This document shows, piece after piece, positions 332-20,842 of a DNA stretch of 21,607 nucleotides (the first letter of the stretch is position 1; the number at the start of each line of letters is the position of its first letter). The stretch is from a virus, in IMG/VR virus record IMGVR_UViG_3300046321_000143, positions 1 to 21,607 of that record; one strand, written 5' to 3'. The notes below the pieces were generated by a model. That model ran no database searches and was not told the origin of the DNA. It saw nothing but the letters and a program-made list of their open reading frames with translations. A program made the position numbers and the translations under genes.

Positions 332-944
332 GGTCTAATTCATTTATAGGAAAGAAATCACCATTGTCTAAATAAGCAACAATAGCAGTCATATTCCTGA
401 GGTTTACTAACTTTATCGCTTTGATCGTTTTAGTTTCTTTTTGTTTAATCGATACTAATTCAATTGTACTTCTATACTTAAAATTGACTATAACTTTGTC
501 TCCTATCATAAACCTAGTATCAATATCTTGAATAATTTTAAAATGTATAGGGTAAAGTGGTGGTAAAATATCTACTAAATCATTAGCTCTTTCTGTATCT
601 TGAGTGGCTTCAATGAAATCAGTATAATCTTCTATTTTTACTTTACTATTAGGTACTAGTACAATAGTAACATTATTAATATCTATAAAAGTATGATTAG
701 GATAAAATGTTTTATCCCTTTGTTTAGGTTTTGTACCTGAACCTCTTGGATTAGTATTTGTTTTTCTTGCTACTGTTTTAATAGGTTTAGTAATAGTAGC
801 TTCACCGTTAGCATTAGCAGAAGTAAGACCACTAACGACACTACTCTTACTTAAGGGCAGGTCACTGCGTTGTGCTTCGCCCGTATTAGAGACTGAGTTT
901 GTGTTTGTTTCTACTAGTACCTTAAAGTTTCTTTTTGTTTCCAT
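318..944 (-). CDS. Unidentified early protein between polymerase and SF2 helicase
   Basis: This 208-residue protein belongs to no family I recognise. Residues 1-80 are low-complexity and Ser/Thr/Asn/Lys-rich, probably a disordered linker. Residues 85-205 are beta-rich, with a short FMIGDKVIVNF segment reminiscent of small SH3-like barrels. Its ATG overlaps the polymerase stop codon by one base (TAATG), and its 3' end overlaps the helicase start by 14 bases, so it is embedded in the replication operon and probably co-translated. Part of the linker, encoded around 860-885, is markedly GC-richer than its surroundings and contains the TACGGGC word discussed in the findings. A role in replication is inferred from context only. 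Confidence 0.75.
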   Translation of the reverse strand: METKRNFKVLVETNTNSVSNTGEAQRSDLPLSKSSVVSGLTSANANGEATITKPIKTVARKTNTNPRGSGTKPKQRDKTFYPNHTFIDINNVTIVLVPNSKVKIEDYTDFIEATQDTERANDLVDILPPLYPIHFKIIQDIDTRFMIGDKVIVNFKYRSTIELVSIKQKETKTIKAIKLVNLRNMTAIVAYLDNGDFFPINELDHVNT

Positions 945-3265
945 TATTTAAGCCAGTGTTGAGCAATTTCATGGTCTGCACCAATTGTTACGTTCTTTAA
1001 ATATCTATTAGCTACTTCAACCATAATACTAGCTTTAACTTCAGCAATATCTTTATAGAATTTACCTTTGATAAATTTATGTGGTAGTAACACATTAACA
1101 ATTTTGTTAGTATCTGATACTAATAAATTATCATTTTGTTTATCCACAATTTCATCATGAACCCATAATAAAACTTTAGCATCAAGTTTATGTTTACGAT
1201 AGTATGTAGCTAATACAACAGTTGCTTCTTTAACAAAATCAGCTTGTGTACCTTGTATTCTAACATTTCTTGCTTCTGACTCTTCAGCACTAATTTCTTT
1301 AAAATGTGTTTCTTTGTTGATTTCTTTTTTAATTTGTTCTATCAATCTTGGAAACCATCTTCTAGCGTTAGTTCTGTAGTTAATAATAACAAAACCTTGT
1401 TTAACAGCAGCAGCAGTAGCACCTTCAACCATAGCAAATGTATCTGGAAGTTCTTTCTTGATAGTATTTATAACTATCTGTCCTTCTTCTTTAGGCACAT
1501 TTAATGTTTCACCTGCTTTTTTACCATACATACCATAGATAGCACCAAAGGTCATACCTTTAAATCCTTTTCTAAATCCAGGTGGGTCAGTTTTAGTAAC
1601 TAAAAATGATTTAGCATTTTCAAAATACTTTTCATATAAAGTTTCTAATTCATATTTAATACCACCCGTAAGTTTTTGCATTTGCTTATAAATCTTACTT
1701 GCTCTAGCTCTATAAATATTTCTCCAACAAATTGTAGCCATGTGACTATGCATATCTATTTTAGAAAGATTAATAAGTTTAAAATCTTGAGCGTGAGAAG
1801 CCATAACAATTAATTCTGCACCACTATAATCAGAAGTATTTAATTTGTAACCTGGAGGTGCAATAAAACAAGCACGATATTGTGCTTCAGCAGGGACATT
1901 TTGAGATTGAAATTTATCAGGTTCTCGTTTACCACCGCCTGATTGCATTCTACCTGTAACAGCAGCTGTTTGTCTATAAATAGTATGAAGTTTACCTGTT
2001 ACTGGGTTTATTTTCTTAATAAAATTAGCACCAAAACTTGTAATCTTATTTTGAACTGTACTATATTCTATCCATAGCTTAATAAATTTAGCCATAATAG
2101 AATCAGGTTTATCAATAAGATATTTCTCAAACATGGGCATACTAACTTTATAAGTAGATACAGGCATATAAGATTGTTCATTACTACTAAAAGTTGGAAT
2201 AGCATAGCCTACTTCTGTAGGTAAGGGTTGATTAAGTCTACCAAAGATTTTAACCATTTCAGTAGGAGTATTGTAATTTACTGATAATTTAGGGTCAGGT
2301 TTATACTCTTTCTTGTTAGTTATAGCTTTAATAGTAGATGGTTCACCAAATAAATCTAATACATTAGTTGTACCATCATCATTAATGTAATCATCTGCAA
2401 CACTGTTAGTTCTAAGTTTATTATACTTATTACCAGCTAATGCAATTTTAGGGTCTAAACCTTTGTATAATTCATTTTCAGATACATAATCTCTAAGACG
2501 TCTAACTTCTTCATCAAGTTTTAATTGAATTTCAAGTCGTTTATCTTTATTAGATTGAATAATACTAATCCATTTTTCAACATCAAAATCAATACCTTCA
2601 TTTTCACTATCAGCTAAGATAGAAATAAGAGGGAATTCAATACCATATATAAGAAATTCCATTTTGTACTTCTTAATAATAGGACGTTGTTTAAGTCTAA
2701 TTTTAAGTGGGTCATTAAGGTCATTTGCTAAATACTTGATATGATGATATTCAATTCTGAATTTAGTAACATCTTTATCAACAAATTCTAATCTTACATC
2801 TTTATCTCTGTATTCTTTTAGATAACGTTTAACAAGTTCACCTAGATTATTATGTCTATAGTAACCCATAAATAAACGTTGTTCTGCTATAATAACATCA
2901 TATACTCTTGTAAGTAAAATGTCATATTTAGCTTGAATAAATTTAATATCGAATTTAAGATTAGCACCTATAATTACAATTTTACGAGTAAGAATATGTT
3001 CATAAACTGATGTAATGTCAACGTCATAAGCAAATATAAATTTGTTTGCATTAGTACCTATACCTGTTAACATGATATCAGATACATAAGGGTCTAAACC
3101 TGTAGTTTCTAAATCGAGGGATTGAATTTTAGCATTACCAATTACATTGTGATATAATCTTATACCATAAGCAGCATCTATAACTCTAATGTCATCAAAC
3201 TCTTCAATTGTAAACTTAAGGTATTCTCTGTATTCTTCTGGTTTATTAGTTACAAAATATATCAT
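944..3265 (-). CDS. Family A DNA polymerase with 3'-5' exonuclease domain
   Basis: The phage replicative polymerase, 773 residues. The proofreading domain is N-terminal: Exo I SLDLETTGL at 49-57, Exo II ANLKFD around 101-106, and Exo III as Y178-L-A-N-D182. The polymerase domain has motif A NTSDYSGAEL with catalytic Asp at 479, motif B from R565 (RKGFKGMTFGAIYG, Lys 569, Tyr 577), and motif C WVHDEIV with His 703 and Asp 704. In motif A the usual QI of bacterial Pol I is GA, closer to the SG form in T7 polymerase. Residues 265-350 form a long, poorly conserved stretch before the palm. All catalytic residues appear intact, so both activities are expected. Family A polymerases occur in many crAss-like phages. 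It starts 9 bases after the preceding stop. Confidence 0.97.
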   Translation of the reverse strand: MIYFVTNKPEEYREYLKFTIEEFDDIRVIDAAYGIRLYHNVIGNAKIQSLDLETTGLDPYVSDIMLTGIGTNANKFIFAYDVDITSVYEHILTRKIVIIGANLKFDIKFIQAKYDILLTRVYDVIIAEQRLFMGYYRHNNLGELVKRYLKEYRDKDVRLEFVDKDVTKFRIEYHHIKYLANDLNDPLKIRLKQRPIIKKYKMEFLIYGIEFPLISILADSENEGIDFDVEKWISIIQSNKDKRLEIQLKLDEEVRRLRDYVSENELYKGLDPKIALAGNKYNKLRTNSVADDYINDDGTTNVLDLFGEPSTIKAITNKKEYKPDPKLSVNYNTPTEMVKIFGRLNQPLPTEVGYAIPTFSSNEQSYMPVSTYKVSMPMFEKYLIDKPDSIMAKFIKLWIEYSTVQNKITSFGANFIKKINPVTGKLHTIYRQTAAVTGRMQSGGGKREPDKFQSQNVPAEAQYRACFIAPPGYKLNTSDYSGAELIVMASHAQDFKLINLSKIDMHSHMATICWRNIYRARASKIYKQMQKLTGGIKYELETLYEKYFENAKSFLVTKTDPPGFRKGFKGMTFGAIYGMYGKKAGETLNVPKEEGQIVINTIKKELPDTFAMVEGATAAAVKQGFVIINYRTNARRWFPRLIEQIKKEINKETHFKEISAEESEARNVRIQGTQADFVKEATVVLATYYRKHKLDAKVLLWVHDEIVDKQNDNLLVSDTNKIVNVLLPHKFIKGKFYKDIAEVKASIMVEVANRYLKNVTIGADHEIAQHWLK

Positions 3266-3274
3266 AAGTTTAAA

Positions 3275-3592
3275 TTAAAATGGTTGTCCTTCAGCAGGTG
3301 TAATAAATCTTTCTAATCTATGTAAAATATTAGTTACAGTTTTAAGTCTAAGCATTTGATGATTATCATTAGGATAATCAACTTGAAGATTACATAAAGC
3401 TTCTAAGAAATTAACTTCTCTATATTCTATGTAATTTATTATTAAACTTAAACAATAGTCTAAAGGTACTTTTACATATACAAACATAAAATCACTTAAA
3501 GATGAATTTATACCTTTATGATAAGCTGTAAGTCCTATATAAGTATTAGGATATTTAACCTTAATATTAGTAATATAATCATTAGTTGTCAT
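3275..3592 (-). CDS. Unidentified small protein between Dda-like helicase and polymerase
   Basis: About 105 residues from the chosen start (MTTNDYITN). The frame stays open upstream to an ATG at 3670 (131 residues), but that start would overlap the helicase gene by 89 bases. The ATG at 3592, or another at 3598, leaves only an 11-17 base overlap, like other junctions in this operon, so I prefer 3592. The sequence is rich in Tyr, Leu and Asn, has no membrane segment or recognisable motif, and ends 9 bases before the polymerase start. Function unknown; a replication accessory role is suggested only by location. Confidence 0.65.
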   Translation of the reverse strand: MTTNDYITNIKVKYPNTYIGLTAYHKGINSSLSDFMFVYVKVPLDYCLSLIINYIEYREVNFLEALCNLQVDYPNDNHQMLRLKTVTNILHRLERFITPAEGQPF

Positions 3593-4949
3593 AAACATAA
3601 ATTGTTTTACTTGTTCTACTAGATGCAACATATAAAAGACTTCTTCTTGTAAAACCATTATAACAAGCACGAAAAGATGGAAGATATATACCTACGTTAC
3701 TGTATGTACTACCTTGTGATTTATGAGTAGTTTGTGCATACCCATAATCAAAATCTTTTTTAGCAACTTTATCATTATAATTATTAAATACTTCATAGTT
3801 AATAAGAATTTTGTTTTTAAAGTCGTAAAACTCTCTCCATGCTCTAAACATTGTACCGTTAGTATGTCTACGTACTAATTCAGCTTCAAAGTCTTCTTTA
3901 CTACTAGGGTGTAGCATATACAATAAATTATCACAATTTACAGCTTTACATTCATATAATACAATTGGTATTTTACAAATTTTAACTGTTATTGCTTTAA
4001 CTTCTGTAAGAAGATAATCTTCTGAGTTTCTGATATGACTTTGAAAGAAAGGTGCAATATCAGTTTCTTTTCCAACTGTACTATAACCTTTAATTAAATC
4101 ACCAACAGCTACATAATCTTCTGAAGGATTTATTCTTTTTCGTAAAAATCCATTAACATTAGTTACTGTAGCATTATCAAAAGCTAATAATTTAGTATTA
4201 TAAGGATCTTTTTTAGCTTCTTCTGTTTTAAATAGTTTAACTATTTCATCAATGTAAGTAGGTCCTTTTCTAAGCATATAACCTTCACCTTTATCATTAA
4301 AAGTATCAGTAATTTTAGTTAATCTAGGTATAAATAAATCAGTACCATTTATAACATCTTCTCTTGCAATATGCAGTAGTTCATTAACAGGGTTGGACTC
4401 ATCTTGTCTCATTATCTCTGTAAGTTCAATTTGAGGATGTTTAATAAATGTATTACTAATTTTAGCATTTTGATTACCTTTTTCTACTGGTGGTAATTGA
4501 TATTTATCACCAATAAAAAGTATCTTAACTTTATATTGTTTACTGAGTTTAGTAATAAGGTTATGAATATAAGGTCCAATCATAGAGCATTCATCTATAA
4601 TAATAATCTTGTATTCTGATATTCTTTCTTGACCTTGAGGCATAAACATAACATTAGTAGGGTCGAAATCCTCCATATTAGTATTAGGTCTAAGTCCAAG
4701 TAAAGATTGAATAGTTTCTCCAGGATAACCTGTCATTTTGTTTATAACAGTTTTTGCTTGGTGAGTAGGAGCAGATACTGCAACAGACCTTATAGTACTT
4801 CGTCTAATAATTTCTTTAACAATAGTACTTTTACCACTACCCGCAGGGCCTGTAAGAGTTATTATACTGTTATCTTCATAATTATACTTTTTTTCTATAA
4901 AATCACCTACTACTTTAATGGCATTTTCTTGACCATTTGTAAAAGTCAT
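3582..4949 (-). CDS. Dda/RecD-like superfamily 1B DNA helicase
   Basis: A 5'-3' DNA helicase of the Dda/RecD2 type, 455 residues, close to T4 Dda (439). Motifs in order: Q-like TNGQENAI at 4-11; Walker A GPAGSGKST at 34-42 (Lys 40); motif Ia SAPTHQAK near 59-66; motif II IIIDECSM with Asp 119 and Glu 120; motif III FIGDKYQLPPV near 145-155; motif IV EIMRQDESNPV near 178-188; motif V YAQTTHKSQGSTYSN near the C-terminus; motif VI LLYVASSRTS. All core ATPase residues are present. Such helicases clear proteins ahead of the fork or support recombination-dependent replication. The 3' end overlaps the next gene. The upstream gap is 56 bases of A/T-rich leader without a clear Shine-Dalgarno sequence. 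Confidence 0.95.
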   Translation of the reverse strand: MTFTNGQENAIKVVGDFIEKKYNYEDNSIITLTGPAGSGKSTIVKEIIRRSTIRSVAVSAPTHQAKTVINKMTGYPGETIQSLLGLRPNTNMEDFDPTNVMFMPQGQERISEYKIIIIDECSMIGPYIHNLITKLSKQYKVKILFIGDKYQLPPVEKGNQNAKISNTFIKHPQIELTEIMRQDESNPVNELLHIAREDVINGTDLFIPRLTKITDTFNDKGEGYMLRKGPTYIDEIVKLFKTEEAKKDPYNTKLLAFDNATVTNVNGFLRKRINPSEDYVAVGDLIKGYSTVGKETDIAPFFQSHIRNSEDYLLTEVKAITVKICKIPIVLYECKAVNCDNLLYMLHPSSKEDFEAELVRRHTNGTMFRAWREFYDFKNKILINYEVFNNYNDKVAKKDFDYGYAQTTHKSQGSTYSNVGIYLPSFRACYNGFTRRSLLYVASSRTSKTIYVYDN

Positions 4950-5986: not shown

Positions 5987-6697
5987 TTATATTAATGTTT
6001 GTTTTTCTATTAAATTAGTTTTATTAAACCAATATAATTTTTTATGTGTACGATGACTTTCTTTTAAACATAGTTTAACAGCTTCAATTGAATATTCAGT
6101 GTCTTTAAGTTCTAAAATATCATCATATTCTTTAATAATAATAGCACTCCATTTTGTTTTTTTAATTGCTATTACAGGTTGTTTTTCTTTTTTATTCTTT
6201 TCTAATATTGATATATGAATATGTTTGAAAGGTTCTAAATAATCAACTTGTTTTATAAATTGATGTTTTTTATGAGAACTTACCTTAGTTTCTAAACAAT
6301 ATCTTATACTTGACATACTAAAGTTATCTATATCTTGAGCTTCTTTTATATTGGTATAAGCTTTTATAATATTACCATAAAAATCTAAAGAAAATATAGG
6401 TGTAGATAAATAATAATCAAGATTAGGGCAATGTCCACCTATTTGTACATTAGTTAATGTACCAGTATTATCACATAATCTACCGTATTGCTTAATTAAT
6501 TTTTGTTCTAATATACAACCTTCTTCTAAAGTTAAATTATCTTTTACAATAGCATACTTACATTTAGAATTATAATATTCTTTCCAAGCGTTTGTTCTAC
6601 CTTTTAAATCTAAGGCTCTATTATTTTGTCCTAATCCAACATAAAATACTGTATCATCTTTTAATACGTGTATATATACATAATAGTTTGTATTCAT
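5987..6697 (-). CDS. GIY-YIG homing endonuclease with two NUMOD-type repeats
   Basis: A free-standing, self-mobilising nuclease of 236 residues. The catalytic domain occupies residues 1-95: YVYI at 6-9 and FYVGLG at 18-23 form the GIY...YIG strands, Arg 27 is the likely catalytic Arg, Glu 64 lies in EQKLIKQYG, and Asn 83 in LTNVQIGG. Two DNA-binding repeats of NUMOD1 type follow: about 98-148 (SLDFYGNIIKAYTNIKEA, then SIRYCL) and about 172-225 (KEYDDILEL, then SIEAVKLCL). The gene sits as a unit between early genes, flanked upstream by 327 bp of noncoding DNA. Its stop codon lies inside the leader motif of the downstream gene. Catalytic residues look intact, so it is probably active. Target site unknown; neighbouring DNA or a related phage is the usual case. 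Confidence 0.92.
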   Translation of the reverse strand: MNTNYYVYIHVLKDDTVFYVGLGQNNRALDLKGRTNAWKEYYNSKCKYAIVKDNLTLEEGCILEQKLIKQYGRLCDNTGTLTNVQIGGHCPNLDYYLSTPIFSLDFYGNIIKAYTNIKEAQDIDNFSMSSIRYCLETKVSSHKKHQFIKQVDYLEPFKHIHISILEKNKKEKQPVIAIKKTKWSAIIIKEYDDILELKDTEYSIEAVKLCLKESHRTHKKLYWFNKTNLIEKQTLI

Positions 6698-10185: not shown

Positions 10186-10216
10186 CAAAGATAAGGTATT
10201 GTTTTGAGAATCCAAG
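10186..10216 (-). promoter_or_regulatory. Bacteroides-type sigma-ABfr promoter (minus strand)
   Basis: On the minus strand CTTG (10216-10213), exactly 19 bases, then TATCTTTG (10193-10186). This matches the Bacteroidetes primary sigma factor consensus (-33 TTTG, -7 TAnnTTTG) in all -7 positions and three of four -33 positions. It points toward the gene starting at 10075. A small hairpin, CACC-CATCA-GGTG on the transcribed strand (10173-10185), would lie at or just after the start of transcription. Confidence 0.7.
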
Positions 10217-10319
10217 CTGAAATAGTGTTAAAGCTTGATTTTAAAGGGCATAAGGACGTATTGAATAATATGATAAAATGTAATACGTTGTAAGTTAAGT
10301 GGTTAGCTATTAATTGGAT

Positions 10320-10500
10320 GTGAGTTTATAGCTGAATTGGTAGGATTGAGGGTAATATGATGAGATTGTAAGTGACTGATAATGAGGGTATGTGGAATTG
10401 GAGTAATGGAGATATATATATAGGTAGAGTGGAGAGGATTTTAGGGTGTAGAGGTGATAGGATTGAGAGAGTAATGAGTATGGTTATATTGTATATGTAT
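10320..10500 (+). repeat. Skewed degenerate inverted repeat, left copy (G-rich on plus strand)
   Basis: The plus strand here is G-rich with almost no C. Three anchors match the minus strand of 12462-12551 in the same order: AATATGATGAGATT (10354-10367, exact), TGGAATTGGAGTA (from about 10391; TGGAATAAGGAGTA in the other copy) and GGATTTTAG (10437-10445, exact). Anchor spacing is 37 and 83 bases here, 31 and 81 there. The copies have diverged but appear homologous. Confidence 0.6.
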
Positions 10501-10673
10501 TAGACTGGCTACATCTGTCCATCGCTCACTCTCCTTCATAGTTACAAGAAACTCTACTAACACTCTCACATGCATCAGCAGAGTCCTCATAACCACCTTA
10601 TTTACTCACTAAATAATCTTTTAATAACTATTCCTCATTGTGTTTTTATAAGGTTATCATCTAATCTCTTAAT

Positions 10674-10883
10674 AACTACAGGCTTCAGCATCCCTACCTC
10701 CACCTGTAGTTTTCCTAGTTGTGGTATTCTACGGTTATATTATTAATAGTATTAACTAGGGTCACCAGACTCTCTTAATCCAGTTCCCCTGGGTTAATAC
10801 CTGAACTATACCAATATTAGGTACAGTTGTTACTTTATTATCATTGTGCTATCTGACTTTTATAAGGACTTTAGACCTTTATA
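10674..10883. other. Cluster of four hairpins, possible structured RNA
   Basis: Stems: AACTACAGG (10674-10682) with CCTGTAGTT (10703-10711), 9 perfect pairs; TTAATCCAG (10775-10783) with CTGGGTTAA (10789-10797), 9 pairs with one T-G; AACTATACC (10804-10812) with GGTACAGTT (10820-10828), 8 of 9 pairs; TATAAGG (10861-10867) with CCTTTATA (10876-10883) with a bulge. The wobble pairs do not agree on one strand. The cluster lies just downstream of the membrane-protein gene that ends at 10972. Confidence 0.4.
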
Positions 10884-10971
10884 CCTAAGTATAGTGCATT
10901 ACACCCCCTTATATCTTTTATATTTAGTTATACAACTTCATAGTTATTATAATATAAGGGTAAGAGAGGTG

Positions 10972-11412
10972 TTATTTCCTTGATAATATTTCCATTAAAT
11001 CGGCAAAATCCTTAGGTTTATCCATTGTAATACCATTGTCATAGAATGTATTAAGTATAGCTTCTTTGATCTCTAAATTAGGAGCCTCAGCTAAGTCTTT
11101 ATACAATTGTTGATAGGTTTCATTTGTAAACTGGTTCTTAATTTGTCTATCTCTCTTATTTTCAAGATACATATCATGATATTTAGAGAATAGTTTAAAT
11201 GCACCTACACTAAGTATAAGTAATTGTAGTCCAATTGCAAATAAAATAATACTTATTACAACAAACATAGTTGTAAATGTGGTTGGTTCAATTTGATTAG
11301 CTTTATAGTATAAGGTAGTTGAATCAATTGCAACTGCACATGCTGATACTAGAGATACTACTGAAAGAACTAAGGTAAATATACCTATAAGGAAAGCTTT
11401 AATTGTTTTCAT
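10972..11412 (-). CDS. Two-helix membrane protein
   Basis: 146 residues. Two hydrophobic segments, about residues 7-29 (FLIGIFTLVLSVVSLVSACA) and 47-72 (FVVISIILFAIGLQLLILSV), are followed by a charged cytoplasmic-type region to the C-terminus (about 75-146) that looks helical. The first segment could be read as a signal peptide, but the following region lacks a clear cleavage site, so a two-pass inner-membrane protein is more likely. Function unknown; holin-like, superinfection-exclusion or replication-anchoring roles are all possible. It lies between the terminator of the upstream gene and a hairpin-rich spacer, so it may be transcribed on its own. Its leader has two 16-bp direct repeats. 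Confidence 0.75.
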   Translation of the reverse strand: MKTIKAFLIGIFTLVLSVVSLVSACAVAIDSTTLYYKANQIEPTTFTTMFVVISIILFAIGLQLLILSVGAFKLFSKYHDMYLENKRDRQIKNQFTNETYQQLYKDLAEAPNLEIKEAILNTFYDNGITMDKPKDFADLMEILSRK

Positions 11413-11434
11413 TTTAATGAGTGTTTAAAGGTTG

Positions 11435-11476
11435 TGAAATGTGAGTTTAAAATTAGATTGAAATGTGAGTTTAATG
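11435..11476 (-). repeat. Direct repeat in the leader of the membrane-protein gene
   Basis: TGAAATGTGAGTTTAA occurs twice with a period of about 24 bases (around 11436 and 11460), immediately upstream of the gene starting at 11412. On the transcribed strand it reads TTAAACTCACATTTCA, partly resembling the recurrent TATAAACTCAA leader motif of other genes. It could be a repressor or activator site or a translation element. Confidence 0.55.
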
Positions 11477-11481
11477 GTAAC

Positions 11482-11517
11482 CAAAAAAGAATGTGCCTAC
11501 TCGGTATGAGTAGACAC
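11482..11517 (-). terminator. Rho-independent terminator of the 11552-12214 gene
   Basis: On the minus strand a 10-bp stem, GTGTCTACTC with GAGTAGGCAC, closes a 5-base loop (ATACC) and is followed by ATTCTTTTTTGG. One pair is T-G only when read on the minus strand, supporting this orientation. A second stem, TACTAG with CTAGTA (11534-11551), lies directly at the stop codon. This makes the upstream gene a one-gene transcription unit. Confidence 0.8.
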
Positions 11518-11551
11518 AATCTATGTAACATAATACTAGTCTATGCTAGTA

Positions 11552-12214
11552 CTATTTTGCTACTTTAGCTTTTTCAGCTTTAGGTTCTTCTGTTTCAAGT
11601 ACTTCCTCAGGAGTCTCAAATTCAAGCTCTTCTGTTGTACCAAATACTTCTTGCTCAAGCTTGTCAGCCGGAGTTTCAGTAGGTACAGCAAGAGTTGGTA
11701 TAGCTACACTTACAGGAGCAGGAGCAGAGATACCAAATAAACCTTGCATAAGAAGCATTGGATTAGCACTATCCATAAAAGCACGTTGCGCATTCTCCAA
11801 ATCTGTAAGAGGGAACGTTAAAAAGCCTTCAACACGAGAACCTTTCTTAAGGGTTTTCAATGTATCACCAACTTTAGCTTCACCATTTTTTACAGCAGTA
11901 GATTCTTCACTAGCGATATAATCATCACCAGCTTCATGAAAAGCAACGTCTGCAAATCCAGTCTTATTAATCAATCCAATAATCGCATTACGGAATTGAT
12001 TAAGCATAAGAGGATTAGCACTTGCAACACCATTGTCAAATAAACCAGCAGGAATGTTAGAACCTCTTGCTGATTTATGTAAGTCAAGTAACGCTTGTTT
12101 ACAAGTTCTAGCAATTTGCTCTTGTTTTCCGTTGATAACAACAGTAAGACCTATAAACGGCTCAATGCCTGCTTTAGTAATAAGGTCTGCGGAGATAACA
12201 TTAAATGTATTCAT
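11552..12214 (-). CDS. Probable abundant early protein with acidic, Pro-rich tail (SSB-like role possible)
   Basis: 220 residues from the preferred ATG (MNTFNVISADL). The frame extends to an ATG at 12250, but those 12 extra residues look like translated leader. A globular part of about 150 residues (VINGKQEQIARTCKQALLDL, later VEGFLTFPLTDLENAQ) is followed by an Ala/Pro linker and a very acidic region (EELEFETPEEVLETEEPKAE) ending in Lys/Ala. Codon use is GC-richer than its neighbours, and the gene has its own terminator and a long structured leader, which suggests strong, separately controlled expression. An acidic tail after a globular domain recalls single-stranded DNA-binding proteins, but no OB-fold signature or typical C-terminal tip is visible, so the role stays open. 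Confidence 0.75.
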   Translation of the reverse strand: MNTFNVISADLITKAGIEPFIGLTVVINGKQEQIARTCKQALLDLHKSARGSNIPAGLFDNGVASANPLMLNQFRNAIIGLINKTGFADVAFHEAGDDYIASEESTAVKNGEAKVGDTLKTLKKGSRVEGFLTFPLTDLENAQRAFMDSANPMLLMQGLFGISAPAPVSVAIPTLAVPTETPADKLEQEVFGTTEELEFETPEEVLETEEPKAEKAKVAK

Positions 12215-12261
12215 AATATAAAGATTAAAGTTACGTGCGTTATGCCACATCGTTATGACCT

Positions 12262-12339
12262 ACGTATCCATACGTTGGTGAAGTGGTTAGTATAGCTGAA
12301 AGACAGTGTACACTGTTGTTTTCATAAAGAAAACTTTTT
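12262..12339 (+). ncRNA. Candidate small structured RNA ending in an intrinsic terminator
   Basis: Two palindromic stems are followed on the plus strand by GTTTTC-ATAAA-GAAAAC and then TTTTT (12318-12339), the form of a rho-independent terminator. No protein-coding gene lies upstream on this strand, so a short RNA starting near 12200-12260, antisense to the leader of the 11552-12214 gene, would explain the arrangement. No plus-strand promoter is evident. The alternative is a barrier against rightward read-through. Confidence 0.35.
12318..12339 (+). terminator. Rightward intrinsic terminator in the divergent region
   Basis: A 6-bp stem GTTTTC/GAAAAC with a 5-base loop is directly followed by five T residues on the plus strand. 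On the minus strand no T-run follows, so it is directional. Confidence 0.6.
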
Positions 12340-12351
12340 CAAACCAAACTT

Positions 12352-12422
12352 GTGGAATACAAATTCAAAATAACAGAACCCACAAAGGGTACGGGTATTT
12401 AAATTCCACGAAAAGTAGTGGG
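12352..12422. promoter_or_regulatory. Mutually exclusive stems in the leader of the acidic-tail protein gene
   Basis: GTGGAAT (12352-12358) pairs with ATTCCAC (12403-12409), enclosing ACCC-ACAAA-GGGT (12378-12390). The same CCAC (12406-12409) can instead pair with GTGG (12418-12421), and CCCAC (12379-12383) with GTGGG (12418-12422). Such alternatives are typical of RNA switches. Transcribed leftwards this would be the 5' leader of the gene starting at 12214. Confidence 0.4.
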
Positions 12423-12461
12423 GGTAACTATATGGGTGTGTACGTAAACATATTACTCATA

Positions 12462-12600
12462 CTAAAATCCAACCTCAACCCATCATCTTTAACTCCATAT
12501 ATTTTATACTCCTTATTCCATATCCTACACAATATCTAATCTCATCATATTTCCACCTATATCTAATTTAATTACTATATCCAATCTCTCCCAAACGTAC
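12462..12600 (-). repeat. Skewed degenerate inverted repeat, right copy (G-rich on minus strand)
   Basis: Inverted counterpart of 10320-10500. Anchors on the plus strand are AATCTCATCATATT (12538-12551), TACTCCTTATTCCA (12507-12520) and CTAAAATCC (12462-12470). The plus strand is C-rich with almost no G. The two copies bracket the membrane-protein and acidic-tail genes. Confidence 0.6.
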
Positions 12601-12674
12601 AAAATTTTACAGTATGTACCTATATATACGCCTGTACCTTTATTACTATATTATTATGGTATTTAAATTACTGT

Positions 12675-12710: not shown

Positions 12711-12829
12711 ATAATTTAGTATATATGGTTGTGTCTAGTTATGGCTTAATGACTGCCCGTACTAGAGAGTTTAGTTGTGTTAGTGACTAAAAAACTTTAA
12801 CAAAATTTTAACATTATTATATAGTATAT

Positions 12830-13048
12830 ATGAATGTTAAAAACATTATATTTGGCATATCTAAACGATATGAGAAACTAATACGAATTAACTCATCGTT
12901 ACGGGCAAGTATTACGCTTATTACTAATAATACTATTATATATAGATTTACATATACAATTACATATACAAAAAATATACAAATTATAGGTACTAATACT
13001 ACCTATTTTTCTGTTTTTACTAATAACCAATTTATAAATAACAATTAA
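12830..13048 (+). CDS. Doubtful small ORF ahead of the late block (72 aa)
   Basis: An open frame of 72 codons ends 12 bases before the start of the 13061 gene. The peptide is Asn/Thr/Ile-rich with a repetitive beta-like stretch (IIYRFTYTITYTKN). Codon use (CGA, CGG, CTA) differs from the neighbouring late genes, which prefer AGA/CGT, and the possible -7 box at 12847 lies inside it. In DNA this AT-rich an ORF of this length can arise by chance. The spacing before the next gene is the only support. Confidence 0.22.
   Translation: MNVKNIIFGISKRYEKLIRINSSLRASITLITNNTIIYRFTYTITYTKNIQIIGTNTTYFSVFTNNQFINNN
12847..12854 (+). promoter_or_regulatory. Possible late promoter -7 box
   Basis: TATATTTG fits the Bacteroidetes -7 consensus TAnnTTTG and is oriented toward the late genes, 200 bases upstream of the first firm one (13061). 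No TTTG is found at -33, so the match may be fortuitous or need a phage activator. Confidence 0.35.
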
Positions 13049-15700: not shown

Positions 15701-16141
15701 ATGCATAGTGCCATATTTTTAGATATTCCTAATCTAATAAAAACAAATAGTAAACAAGCTTTTCCAATACATAGAGAAGACTGGTCTATTTCACAAGAGA
15801 TTAAAGATATACTTACTAAATACATAGACCTTAATTATAAGGTTTTTCTTGTTGGTAATTATCCTAATATACCTGTACGTAAAAGAGAATCTAATCCTAT
15901 AGAGAATCTTTTTATTAATATTGCAGAGAGTCTTGAAAAAGAATTTAAACTTGAAACTAATAGTATTCATTTCGAATATGCTACAGATAATGATAACTTT
16001 GATTATTTACCTCTTCCTGGTATGTTTTATAACTTAGCTACTGAACATGATATTTTACTTGGATATTCTTTTATTATTACTACTTCTGTTTTATCTCGTT
16101 ATATACAATTATATTCGTCGATTAAACCTATAATTATATAA
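15701..16141 (+). CDS. HAD-like phosphatase fold protein, probably catalytically dead
   Basis: 146 residues whose pattern follows the GmhB/histidinol-phosphatase branch of the HAD superfamily. AIFLDIPNLI at the N-terminus stands for VFLDRDGTI, so the nucleophile Asp 8 remains but the second Asp is Pro 10. YKVFLVGNYPNIPVRK stands for the VVVTNQSGIARGK strand, with the motif II Thr replaced by Gly. DYLPLPGMFYNLA stands for CRKPKPGMLLQA, with the catalytic basic residue missing. The final DD/DK motif is also absent. This alignment is by eye. It lies between a terminator and the large terminase, so its transcription may start from an unrecognised promoter around 15672-15700. A structural or regulatory role is more likely than phosphatase activity. 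Confidence 0.6.
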   Translation: MHSAIFLDIPNLIKTNSKQAFPIHREDWSISQEIKDILTKYIDLNYKVFLVGNYPNIPVRKRESNPIENLFINIAESLEKEFKLETNSIHFEYATDNDNFDYLPLPGMFYNLATEHDILLGYSFIITTSVLSRYIQLYSSIKPIII

Positions 16142-16144
16142 GAT

Positions 16145-18481
16145 ATGAGAAGATTTGATTCCACCGCTTATGATTTAGTTCATAGTCTCGAAGATTTATT
16201 GCCTACTATGAATATAAATCAAGAGATATATCAAACTCCTTTTATCTCTACTCCTTATATTAATCCTGAGAATGAAGCTGAAGATGTATTAGAAATGTTT
16301 GACTTTGAAGATATAGCATTTGTTAATACTTCAGAAGCATCTATTGCTGCAAGGCATTTTCAGAAGCATGGTTGTTATACTAAAGCACATCCTAAATGGG
16401 ATAGACGTGAATATAAAGCTTTTTGGGATGAAGAGGAAAGAAAATGTAAAGAAGGACTTGTACTTCCTGGTAAACTTAAAATGAATGAAAATGGTATTTA
16501 TGAAGTTCAACAGATACATATAACTGGAGAGCATTATGGATACTTAAATTACTCTAAAATACAAGCTTCTAAAGATTTTGATGTTAAAGGTGGAGCATTA
16601 TTATCTCCTAATGGTGAACAACTACATAAAGTAGAACAAGGTATTATAAATAAACAAGCTTTGTTTCCTTCTTTTTGGGATGGAGATTATTATTTCTTTA
16701 AATCTATAGAACTTGCTAAAAGAGTAGGTAGACATATTGTTGTAGGTAAAGCTAGACGTAAAGGTTACTCTTATAAAAATGGTTGGTTAGTAGCTAATCA
16801 AGCTAACTTATATAGACGTAGTACTTCTGTTGTTGCTGCTTATGATAGTGCTTCTTTATTTGAAGATGGTACTATGAATAAAGTAGTTTCTTTCTTAGAT
16901 AATATAAATAGCCATACTGATTGGAATAAAGGTAGAATACATAATGCACTTGAACATATTGAAATTGGATATAGACTTAGAGGTAATCCTTCTAAACGTG
17001 GTTTTCTTTCTAATATATATACTGCTATACTTGGAAAAGACGGTGGTAAAATTAGGGGTAAAGATGCCGACTTAATACTTATCGAAGAAGCTGGAAAATG
17101 TGCTAATCTTTCTGATGTACTTGATGCTACATTAAAGTCTCTTGAAGATGGTACAAGAATGACAGGTCTTATGATTGTTTTTGGTACTGGTGGTGGAGCT
17201 GAAAATGCATGGGCAGGTTTTGAGGATTTATTCTATAATGTTATAAGTAGAAAATTCTTAGGCTTTGTAAACAATTGGGATGACGAAGCTACAGATGATT
17301 GTTGTGGTTTCTTTCACCCTTGTTTTATGTCTAAACCTGGACTTATTGATAGACATGGTAATAGTGATGTACAAGGAGGTATTGAATTTGAGCGTAAAGA
17401 TTTACTACGTTATGGTCAAGATGATGCTAAAATTACAAGTCACTTAATGGAGGAACCTAAAAAACCTTCTCAAGCTTTTAGTAGAGCTAAGAGTGAAATC
17501 TTTAATGCACAATTAATTGATGCTCATTTTAAACGTGTTAATAAACTTAATGGTAAAAACCCTGTTGGACGTGAAGGTGTATTTAACTTTAAAGTTAATA
17601 AAGTAGTCTTTAGAGATAGAGCTCTTATGGATGAAGATGAGTTAGCACTATCTGCTAGAGCCATACGTAATTATCCTATTGCTAAATCAGAAGATTCTAG
17701 AGGATGTTGGGTTATATATGATGAGCCTTATAGAGACCCTGCTACTGGTTTAATTCCTGAGAATCTTTATCATACTTGGGTTGACCCTTTTGCTATATCT
17801 AAAGATAAAGATAGTTTTACAACTAAAGACTCTTTAGCTTGTACTATTATATATGAAGCTGCTAATAATATGACTACTAGTAAAGGTGATAAAATTGTTG
17901 CTGTGTATGTTGGTAGAACTGCTGATACAACTGATTATGACCATCAAATGTTCTTAGGTGCTACATACTTTGGTAGTAAGGTTCTTTATGAAAACGATAG
18001 AGGTGATGTATATGCAAACGCCTTAAAATTAGGCTTTGTCAGCATTCTAAAAACTGAAACGACCTTTCAACATCAATCGGAAGTACAAAAGGGCGGAATG
18101 GGGCGAAAATACGGTATCTCAATAGGAGGGAATGCACAGCGAAAAGGCACTGCAATTATCTATTTAAAAAACTGGTTAATAAGTCCGAGGGGTAAAGATA
18201 TTCACGGAAACACGATATTAAATTTGCATTTAATATATGATTTACCTATATTGAAAGAGTTATTGAAATATGACGGTTCTAAGAATGCAGATAGGGTATC
18301 ATGTTTATTAATTGGAATGTATGATATTAAGGAAGCTCTTTATAAGCAACAAGTACCTGAAAGACCTAGACTAGAAGCAGAGGATTATTTTAACAATCCT
18401 TTTGGTGAAACTAGCAATGATAGTATATATAATGAGCAAGATAGTATAACAGGAGTTGAAATAGATTCCTACTTTAAATAA
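16145..18481 (+). CDS. terL: Terminase large subunit (DNA packaging ATPase-nuclease)
   Basis: 778 residues. It pumps DNA into the prohead and cuts it. ATPase domain: a deviant Walker A, GKARRKGYSYKNG, at 201-213, lacking the canonical GKS/T end; Walker B LILIEEAG with Glu 314 and 315; coupling motif VFGTGGG near 345. The RNase H-like nuclease has VDPF with Asp 547, YENDRGD with Glu 616, and NADRVS with Asp 716 as the likely metal ligands. The length and the neighbouring portal fit crAss-like phages. Codon use from about 18005 to 18340 (residues 621-732) differs sharply from the rest (CGA, GGG, CCG, TCG, ACG), yet the frame is intact. It starts 4 bases after the preceding stop and is followed 7 bases later by the portal gene. 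Confidence 0.93.
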   Translation: MRRFDSTAYDLVHSLEDLLPTMNINQEIYQTPFISTPYINPENEAEDVLEMFDFEDIAFVNTSEASIAARHFQKHGCYTKAHPKWDRREYKAFWDEEERKCKEGLVLPGKLKMNENGIYEVQQIHITGEHYGYLNYSKIQASKDFDVKGGALLSPNGEQLHKVEQGIINKQALFPSFWDGDYYFFKSIELAKRVGRHIVVGKARRKGYSYKNGWLVANQANLYRRSTSVVAAYDSASLFEDGTMNKVVSFLDNINSHTDWNKGRIHNALEHIEIGYRLRGNPSKRGFLSNIYTAILGKDGGKIRGKDADLILIEEAGKCANLSDVLDATLKSLEDGTRMTGLMIVFGTGGGAENAWAGFEDLFYNVISRKFLGFVNNWDDEATDDCCGFFHPCFMSKPGLIDRHGNSDVQGGIEFERKDLLRYGQDDAKITSHLMEEPKKPSQAFSRAKSEIFNAQLIDAHFKRVNKLNGKNPVGREGVFNFKVNKVVFRDRALMDEDELALSARAIRNYPIAKSEDSRGCWVIYDEPYRDPATGLIPENLYHTWVDPFAISKDKDSFTTKDSLACTIIYEAANNMTTSKGDKIVAVYVGRTADTTDYDHQMFLGATYFGSKVLYENDRGDVYANALKLGFVSILKTETTFQHQSEVQKGGMGRKYGISIGGNAQRKGTAIIYLKNWLISPRGKDIHGNTILNLHLIYDLPILKELLKYDGSKNADRVSCLLIGMYDIKEALYKQQVPERPRLEAEDYFNNPFGETSNDSIYNEQDSITGVEIDSYFK

Positions 18482-18487
18482 ATAAAT

Positions 18488-20842
18488 ATGCCGTTACCAA
18501 ATCAATTACTAACAATGGCTGAAAAGTCAGTTAGAGATACTAATACAGGTCTCACTAATATAGAAGAGACTATTGTTCATTATATTGATTCTTCAGGCTG
18601 GAAATCAGAATATGAAGAGATTAATAGATTATTTGCTGCTGTAGAAGGTATTATAAATTTTTCTGAATATAAAGCTATATTTGGTTCTACTAACCAAGAT
18701 TCAGGTGCAGATACAGACTTTATGTATAAATCTAAATTACAGAATCACAATATCCTTATGGGTATTGCTAAACTGTTAATTGGAGAGTTTGGTACAAGAT
18801 CACATGAGTATGAAGTTGTTAACTTAAATCCTAATGATGATATTTCTCGCACTATAGCTTTAAATATGGTTATTAAAGAATGGCACAAAAAGAAAGTCCT
18901 TATGGAATTTCAAAAAGTGACAGGTATGCAACCAAGTGAAGAACAACCTATGCCAGAACTTGAAAAGGTAGTTAACGAGTTTAATGCTAGCTTTAATGAT
19001 AGTACTTTAATTAAAGGTCAAGAAGCTCTTGATTTTATTAGATTCTATTGTAGTATTGATTTCAAGCTTACAGAAGCTTTTTATGATTACGTTGTAACAG
19101 GTGGATGTATAACATATAAAGATGTTATTAATAATGAAGTTGTATATGAACATGTTCCTAGAAATCAAGTCTTTATTTTAAATATGAAAGAAGGTAGTCC
19201 TTTTATTGAAGATGCTGAAGTTCATATTAGACGTCGTTTAATGACTCCTTATTCTATTTTAGAAATGTTACAAGAGGATATTGAAGAAGACCAAATTAAA
19301 GCTTTTCAAAATGAAGTTAATAATGGTTACAGTGAATACAATGCTAATTATGTAACTACAGGTAGAAATGGAGGTATGGCTGGAAACAACTATATTAATT
19401 CTAAAATACCTATGTCAGCTTATACTGATGGAATAGAAGTTTTTCATGTTGTATATACTTCTTTTAAAGATGTTTATATCTTATCTTATATAGATGAGTT
19501 TGGAATGGAACAAGAGAAAGAAGTTATAGCTGATTATGAATTAATACCAGACTTAGGAGATATAAGTATATCTAAAGAATGGTATACTTGTAAATTACAA
19601 GGTTATAAAGTTATGGATTACTTCTTTAAATGTGGTGAAGTTCCATTTGACCGTTCTGATGTAGATTCTAAAGGTAATTTAAAATCTTGTTATAATGGTA
19701 TTGTATCTAGAACTAGAATTGGAGAAATAAACTCTATTATAAAAGAAGGTTTAGTATACCAACGAACTATTAATGTATTAAAGTTCAGTATGGAAAAACT
19801 AATAAATAAGAATAAAGATAAAGTACTTGTTATGCCATATGGTTTAGTACCACGTTCTAAAGGTATTAGTACAGCTAAACAAGCTTATCATATGGATGCT
19901 ACATCTGTACTTTGGATTGATGAAGCTGCCCCTAATGCATCTTTTGCCGCTCAAATGATTAAGTCTATTGATATGTCTTTGAATGGTATTATTGCTGAAA
20001 TTAGTAGTTTAGTTATACAAACTAAAAACGAGTATTGGGAAGCTATCGGTATGAATGCTCAAAGATATTCTGATGTTAGTCAATATGCAGGTAAAGCTAC
20101 CACTGAACAAGCTATTGTACGTAGTGCTATTATTACATATGATTTAGTAAGTTCTTTTGATAAGATGGTAGAAAAAGATTATCAAGGTTTATTAGATATA
20201 TCTAAAGCTGCTTGGATTAATGGTATTAAAGAAGGTTATATCTTTAGTGATAGTTCTCGTGGTGTATTTGAAATGAATATTGATGATGCTAACTATCATG
20301 CATCTTCTAATTACAATGTATTTGTAAAAGATGCTACTACTAATACTAGAGGTATTGAAGCTATGAGAAGTTTTGCTGGTTCTATGTTACAAAATGGTGC
20401 CTCTGCTTCAGCTGTTAGTAAAATGTATACTACTAATAGTACTTCTAAAGTTAGTGTATTATTAGAAAAAATGGAAAAGGTACAACAAATGGTAGCTGAA
20501 CAAGCTTCACAAGCAGACCATGAAAGAGCCGTTCAATTACAAGAAATGCAAGCTGAACTTCAAAAAGCCGCTGATGAACTTAAAGTATATGAAATTGATA
20601 GTAAACTTGAAGGTGTTAAATATACTGCTGATAGAATGCTAGATGGTAGAAGTTTAGATGCTAATGGTGATGGTGAAAATGATTTGCCCGTAATGGAAGA
20701 TAATTCGTTTGAAGAAGAATTAAAAACTAGAGAAGCTAATAGAAAAGAAAGAATGGATAAGCATACTGTTACAAAAGATAATAAAGAACTAGAGTTAAAA
20801 GCTAAAGCTTTATCACAAAGAAAAACAACAAGCAATAAGTAA
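18488..20842 (+). CDS. Portal protein
   Basis: 784 residues, encoded right after the large terminase, the usual place for the dodecameric portal through which DNA enters the capsid. The identification rests on position, length and the overall mixed alpha/beta character of residues 1-600 (for example the acidic helix EILQ-like region near 255-275 and a long helix near 400-430). Residues 640-715 are a charged, Gln/Ala-rich coiled coil (VQLQEMQAELQKAADELK). It is followed by an EF-hand-like loop DANGDGEND at 724-732 and a highly charged tail. The Ca-binding look of this loop is unusual for a portal. No signal of truncation. Confidence 0.88.
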   Translation: MPLPNQLLTMAEKSVRDTNTGLTNIEETIVHYIDSSGWKSEYEEINRLFAAVEGIINFSEYKAIFGSTNQDSGADTDFMYKSKLQNHNILMGIAKLLIGEFGTRSHEYEVVNLNPNDDISRTIALNMVIKEWHKKKVLMEFQKVTGMQPSEEQPMPELEKVVNEFNASFNDSTLIKGQEALDFIRFYCSIDFKLTEAFYDYVVTGGCITYKDVINNEVVYEHVPRNQVFILNMKEGSPFIEDAEVHIRRRLMTPYSILEMLQEDIEEDQIKAFQNEVNNGYSEYNANYVTTGRNGGMAGNNYINSKIPMSAYTDGIEVFHVVYTSFKDVYILSYIDEFGMEQEKEVIADYELIPDLGDISISKEWYTCKLQGYKVMDYFFKCGEVPFDRSDVDSKGNLKSCYNGIVSRTRIGEINSIIKEGLVYQRTINVLKFSMEKLINKNKDKVLVMPYGLVPRSKGISTAKQAYHMDATSVLWIDEAAPNASFAAQMIKSIDMSLNGIIAEISSLVIQTKNEYWEAIGMNAQRYSDVSQYAGKATTEQAIVRSAIITYDLVSSFDKMVEKDYQGLLDISKAAWINGIKEGYIFSDSSRGVFEMNIDDANYHASSNYNVFVKDATTNTRGIEAMRSFAGSMLQNGASASAVSKMYTTNSTSKVSVLLEKMEKVQQMVAEQASQADHERAVQLQEMQAELQKAADELKVYEIDSKLEGVKYTADRMLDGRSLDANGDGENDLPVMEDNSFEEELKTREANRKERMDKHTVTKDNKELELKAKALSQRKTTSNK

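Follow-up and report, generated by a model that had tools for sequence, protein, structure and literature searches.

In phage lambda, nutL and nutR, together with the Rho-dependent terminators tL1 and tR1, form two outward-facing control sites that flank a central region, each combining a structured RNA element with a portion onto which Rho loads. For Rho to load, RNA has to be rich in C, poor in G, unstructured, and untranslated, and little else is needed; complete absence of G is not a requirement of known rut sites. Two tracts that are C-rich and free of G when read outward, irrespective of the side on which they lie, bracket a two-gene cassette in the stretch of DNA analyzed here (a 21.6-kb virus record of 21,607 nt; the window). 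These tracts are probably functional, and the most likely functions are the arrest of stray transcription and the initiation of DNA replication.

The window carries genes for TerL (16145–18481; match to phrog_6681, 9.5e-85) and portal (18488–20842; phrog_6547, 2.3e-65), both of crAss-like type as found in the Crassvirales, and a gene for DNA polymerase on the minus strand (944–3265). TerL matched 146 phage records, mostly Crassvirales and every one at less than 60% identity; identity was about 27–29% among the matches listed and, with Crassvirales records, reached up to about 30% over about 90% of the length. No near match to the window DNA was present among 50,697 phage records. Judged by TerL and portal, the window represents part of the genome of a crAss-like phage that is only distantly related to those on record. 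The likely genes left of 12214 all point leftward and those right of 13061 all point rightward; therefore, the tract pair sits at a divergent switch. Other genes of the arms encode a superfamily 1 helicase (3582–4949; AAA_30, UvrD_C_2), a match to the polynucleotide kinase 3′-phosphatase family (15701–16141; PF08645, 8.5e-5), and a product whose N-terminus resembles, by eye, GIY-YIG homing endonucleases (5987–6697; no Pfam match at E 0.1).

The left tract (10334–10503, minus strand) has 59 G and 1 C on the plus strand and is, thus, G-free and C-rich in its leftward, that is, outward reading; between 10377 and 10504 (128 nt), the plus strand is strictly devoid of C. The right tract (12449–12596, plus strand) has 44 C and no G on the plus strand, is likewise G-free and C-rich when read outward (rightward), and lies in a strictly G-free stretch of 152 nt (12445–12596). 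An earlier note on this DNA had claimed strand skew around the cassette; it is real and stronger than had been stated. The segment scores within the window were 80.5 (C-free, left) and 62.0 (G-free, right). Chance was controlled for by Markov-1 simulation of 300 whole windows, with a maximum of 47, and by 2,000 simulations of each intergenic region, with maxima of 53.75 (left) and 36.5 (right), so the skew of both tracts is beyond anything in the simulations. The note had also described a flip of the skew beyond each copy, toward the cassette, and this was seen as well: at 10505–10720, where the inner flank of the left tract is C-rich on the plus strand (G-rich when read outward), and at about 12385–12448 on the inner side of the right tract, which is G-rich on the plus strand. 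As had been noted too, just a membrane-protein gene, an acidic-tail gene, and noncoding DNA lie in between. A further C-free stretch of 70 nt, with a 16-nt direct repeat (TGAAATGTGAGTTTAA), is situated between the two cassette genes (11411–11480).

Relatives of the acidic-tail protein, at 58–72% identity, were present in six viral contigs, the TerL of which is 77–89% identical. Of these, five include both flanks, and each shows a tract on either side of the same cassette; L021, the sixth, includes the right flank alone and has the right tract. Distant relatives were added by a TerL profile. L031 and L037 (TerL 54–55%) have both tracts, with, for example, 88 C and no G in 213 nt, and 69 G and no C in 224 nt. 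The right tract of L026 is the same as that of L031; L028, covered on the right flank alone, has the right tract; L032 (TerL 47%) has both, albeit less C-rich; and both are present in G016, which was found via an element at the right inner edge (see below). Altogether, the tract pair flanks the same two-gene cassette in ten genomes, including the window, down to about 47% TerL identity. In L036 (TerL 44%), there is a left tract of 93 nt, and the right one is AT-rich. In L029 and L035, the pair was not found, the former having the acidic-tail gene without zero-C/zero-G tracts. The tracts do not count as independent events, given that there are two in each genome and that the genomes are related, and several of the relatives stem from one sample (3300020045). 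Across the clade, the tracts are 110–320 bases long, with one strand essentially lacking guanine, and the members of a pair are 1.7–2.6 kb apart. A second, inward-facing G-free tract of 75–97 nt was observed on the inner flank of the left tract in several relatives (L031:4368-4442, L037:4282-4378, L025:2186-2272, and L030:4133-4229).

Four contigs of 81–85 kb each have one main divergent switch, with the tract pair beside it. In three of them (G002, G007, and G008), the pair scored 50–145 versus at most 31 elsewhere, except for a smaller companion beside the left tract; in G016, the margin was narrow (49 and 34 versus 29 elsewhere). The right tracts align with each other at about chance, and the left tracts align somewhat better within the close group. 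Composition is conserved, and the letters drift. The proposal of the earlier note that the two sides form a paired functional element is, thus, supported, in that both tracts are kept across a deep clade in the same orientation and place while their letters drift.

The same does not apply to the notion that the two sides are degenerate inverted repeats, that is, copies of each other. Aligning 10300–10520 with the reverse complement of 12440–12620 resulted in a score of 234, compared with a mean of 202 (sd 18) for dinucleotide-shuffled sequences (p = 0.048); for the tracts alone, p was 0.41. The best word shared in inverted orientation is 17 nt long with a 94% match (10351–10367/12538–12554). 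In nine genomes with both tracts, left–right similarity was near the level of composition (z between −0.3 and 3.6, mostly below 2). Moreover, a motif in the left tract of the window (10367–10381, minus strand; TATCAGTCACTTACA, consensus TATCARCCAYTTACM) recurs in 8 of 10 left tracts with 0–3 mismatches and is missing from nearly all right tracts; its consensus was taken from the same sequences, and its probabilities are, therefore, post hoc. Scars of an old inserted or inverted cassette, which had been offered as another reading, fare no better: all relatives that include both flanks have the same genes in the same order, neither duplicated ends nor target-site duplications were observed, and the tracts are maintained across the clade, not decaying. 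Despite the shared 17-nt word, inverted repeats or cassette scars are, therefore, a highly improbable explanation.

What is conserved is a composition of three letters. Pooled outward strands consist of 30–32% A, 31% C, 0.5% G, and 36–39% T. If G were simply left out of the genome composition, about 17% C would be expected; therefore, C is favored as well as G avoided. The G+C content of the tracts (22–41%) is not lower than that of the genomes (25–33%), and, therefore, the constraint is on which strand carries G and not on melting. The predicted minimum free energy (MFE) of the outward strand was near zero in nearly all of 22 tracts; for 170-nt fragments sampled over the window, it averaged −0.155 kcal/mol per nt, with a maximum of −0.065. 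Within the three-letter alphabet, no extra selection against pairing was apparent (mean z about 0), because omission of G already removes structure. YC dinucleotides are not enriched in left tracts and slightly enriched in right tracts. Several other accounts of the tracts were considered and discarded. They are not coding sequence, as their letters are not conserved and the G-free strand contains no start codons. Cytosine deamination cannot, by reasoning, raise G on the C-free strand. A long hairpin that would pair the inner G-rich segment with the G-free tract is not general (block-shuffle z, −3.05 to +0.7; absent from L031 and L037), and no known structured RNA family was matched at the Rfam gathering threshold.

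Both cassette genes are encoded on the minus strand. The acidic-tail protein (11552–12214; 220 aa, counted from the MNTF methionine common to the homologues) yielded a low-confidence, beta-rich model (mean pLDDT 57) without a significant fold match; Pfam, PHROGs, AlphaFold, and Foldseek returned nothing usable as to its identity, and no copies of the gene were found in host genomes. The small membrane protein (10972–11412; 146 aa) matched no family above cut-off, and a similarly placed gene exists in L003, L007, L028, L031, and L037. The cassette ends in a noncoding 3′ region (10720–10971, minus strand), the start of which folds into a hairpin in four relatives, with double compensatory changes at 4 of 26 pairs; the window sequence aligns poorly there. 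This hairpin is a sign that transcription may run leftward as far as the left tract. In L003 (7362–7475), and likewise in L004–L006, the compensated hairpin lies just after the membrane-protein gene, has no Rfam match, and is a probable structured RNA.

Just inside the right tract lies an element of regularly spaced G-runs (12390–12440, plus strand; TACGGG-n13-CGAAA-n7-GGGGT-n8-GGGTG). It occurs as a single copy per genome, always pointing outward, and its spacing is fixed across the clade (ACGGG-n13/14-C(C/G)AAR-n7/8-GGGGT-n8-GGGT); the consensus fold is weak despite this conservation. Among 2.9 million viral contigs, 11 contained the exact pattern, and all are members of this clade; ten were already known, and the eleventh also has the tract pair. 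The element is, thus, clade-specific. A clade-specific element beside the right tract, a motif in the left tract, and a cassette gene that are all kept together would be in line with a single-stranded or RNA platform for a phage protein (the acidic-tail protein, a virion RNA polymerase, or a regulator), which could, for example, control early transcription in both directions. However, the gene occurs in L029 without zero-C/zero-G tracts and in L035 with no tracts; we regard a platform of this kind as unlikely.

Putative promoters of the two arms are located a few hundred bases outward of the tracts and were recognized by TAnnTTTG boxes, which we take to be the −7 promoter type of Bacteroidota. 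Outside the left tract, such a box, TATCTTTG, is present at 10186–10193 on the minus strand and recurs at the same position in L022, L024, L025, and L030 as TAcCTTTGCACC or TATCTTTGCACC. Outside the right tract, the box TATATTTG (12847–12854, plus strand) has counterparts at the matching place in L021 and L023, and similar boxes precede the first right-arm gene in L030, L031, L032, and L037. Next to the right-arm promoter, two TTTAACA direct repeats, 11 bp apart (12796–12813, plus strand), are conserved in an alignment of seven relatives and, by eye, also in L031 and L037; single copies precede the left-arm promoter in several genomes, and the repeats look like a regulator site. The same promoter is surrounded by a spaced inverted repeat (12754–12771/12890–12907; TGCCCGTA...TACGGGCA) that reads TGCCCATA...TATGGGCA in relatives, which is a paired change; there was no consensus fold around the promoter, although a TGCCC/GGGCA inverted repeat is visible there by eye.

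Leftward TAnnTTTG boxes also occur outside the right tract in several genomes, and from such a promoter, an inward transcript could arise, for example, as a long, G-rich leader of the acidic-tail mRNA; the tracts would then act as G-rich (C-free) RNA or through an inward R-loop. Yet chance is expected to produce boxes of this type in AT-rich DNA, there is no gene that an inward transcript of the left tract could serve, and G runs are not clustered beyond composition (CC at 1.02–1.12 of expectation on the complementary strand), so that this explanation seems quite improbable.

A more promising, though tentative, reading of the sequence is that the tracts are outward-facing Rho-loading insulators, which would shield the arm promoters from the central control cassette. 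RNA polymerase would exit the cassette leftward by read-through, and rightward by divergent or antisense initiation. The outward RNA would then enter a G-free, C-rich, unstructured, and untranslated stretch of 110–320 nt, an ideal loading site (rut site) for the host termination factor Rho, and Rho, once loaded, would release the polymerase ahead of the arm promoter, which lies a few hundred bases beyond the tract. Expression of the cassette would, thereby, be uncoupled from that of the two long arms of the phage. In favor of this reading, the outward strand is G-free and C-rich at both ends of the cassette; it would provide C-rich, G-poor RNA over the about 70–80 nt or more of a rut site, with little predicted secondary structure; and rut-like windows of 78 nt (at least 20 C and at most 2 G) concentrate at the tracts in five sequences. 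That composition is kept while the sequence drifts is as expected, because a binding platform would make little demand on sequence. The position also fits: the left tract follows the structured 3′ region of the cassette and precedes the next putative promoter, and the right tract lies between the divergent cassette and the putative right-arm promoter. The reading supposes outward transcription of both tracts, followed by binding of Rho and by termination; on the right, this transcription is putative, as the DNA between the acidic-tail gene and the tract revealed no rightward promoter. Against insulation by Rho, the convergent switch of the four 81- to 85-kb contigs has no such tracts, though terminators would be useful there too, and the strict absence of G and the G-run element are left unexplained; that YC dinucleotides, which rut sites would be expected to carry beyond base composition, are not enriched on the left and are slightly enriched on the right also counts against it.

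The main rival, which we consider rather less probable than not, is a bidirectional, transcript-primed replication origin. Here, outward transcripts would hybridize at the G-run segments, end or be cleaved where the G-free tract begins, and serve as primers for outward leading strands; the displaced strand, which is also the lagging-strand template, would be the G-free one, stay unstructured, and take up single-stranded DNA-binding protein (SSB) and helicase. The pair does sit at the divergent switch and at or near the minimum of the cumulative GC skew in four near-complete contigs (within about 2–4 kb in G002; a local minimum in G008), but this minimum is confounded with gene direction, as all genes of an arm point the same way. 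G-rich segments precede both tracts in the outward direction, the one on the right with the conserved G-run element, and the outward strand is predicted to be unstructured; however, the tracts are not the easy-melting, AT-enriched DNA of an origin, and neither initiator sites nor iterons were identified. The acidic tail of the cassette protein is in line with an SSB, but this role is only a guess, as the structure model is poor and gave no significant match to a fold such as the OB fold of SSBs. The C-richness and the position just inside the arm promoters are likewise unaccounted for by an origin. The Rho-loading insulator is, thus, ranked slightly above the origin, and the sequence cannot separate origin, R-loop site, and leader RNA. 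Irrespective of the mechanism, it is possible, if doubtful, that the tracts represent a new class of cis-element, in which mirror-image tracts conserved as a three-letter alphabet, with G banned from the outward strand and C preferred, mark the bidirectional hub of a phage genome and act on the single strand (RNA or ssDNA) in a way not described before.

A search of the open-access literature for G-free tracts in phages and for crAss replication origins found nothing relevant. In the genomes compared here, selection keeps one base absent for up to about 300 nt, with the order of the other three drifting, and elements conserved in composition alone are missed by alignment-based searches. If the tracts were Rho insulators, they would be a clean, naturally occurring model of Rho loading in Bacteroidota and of the way in which early and later transcription are kept apart in crAss-like phages; if they were origins, they would locate replication initiation in these phages.

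The phages crAss001, phi14:2, cr124_1, and cr127_1 belong to the same virus order as the window by TerL and portal and also have two divergent gene arms; a comparable tract pair is absent from the stretches of their genomes examined. With mitochondrial CSBII and ColE1 RNA II origins, the tracts share a G-run segment followed by a sharp switch in composition, and skewed strands. They differ from these in being two, mirror-imaged, and 1.7–2.6 kb apart, and in that the DNA after the switch is G-free, not AT-rich. What the tracts have in common with lambda nutL/nutR is that a central region is flanked by control sites that face outward; unlike in lambda, neither a boxA/boxB-like element nor an N-like protein or antiterminator was identified, and each arm seems to be served by a promoter of its own, outside the tract. 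Rut sites and Rho-dependent terminators resemble the tracts in providing C-rich, G-poor, unstructured, and untranslated RNA before the point at which transcription is to stop. Unlike rut sites, with the action of Rho here being putative, the tracts form one mirror pair per genome, at the divergent and not the convergent switch, and are entirely G-free over 110–320 nt.
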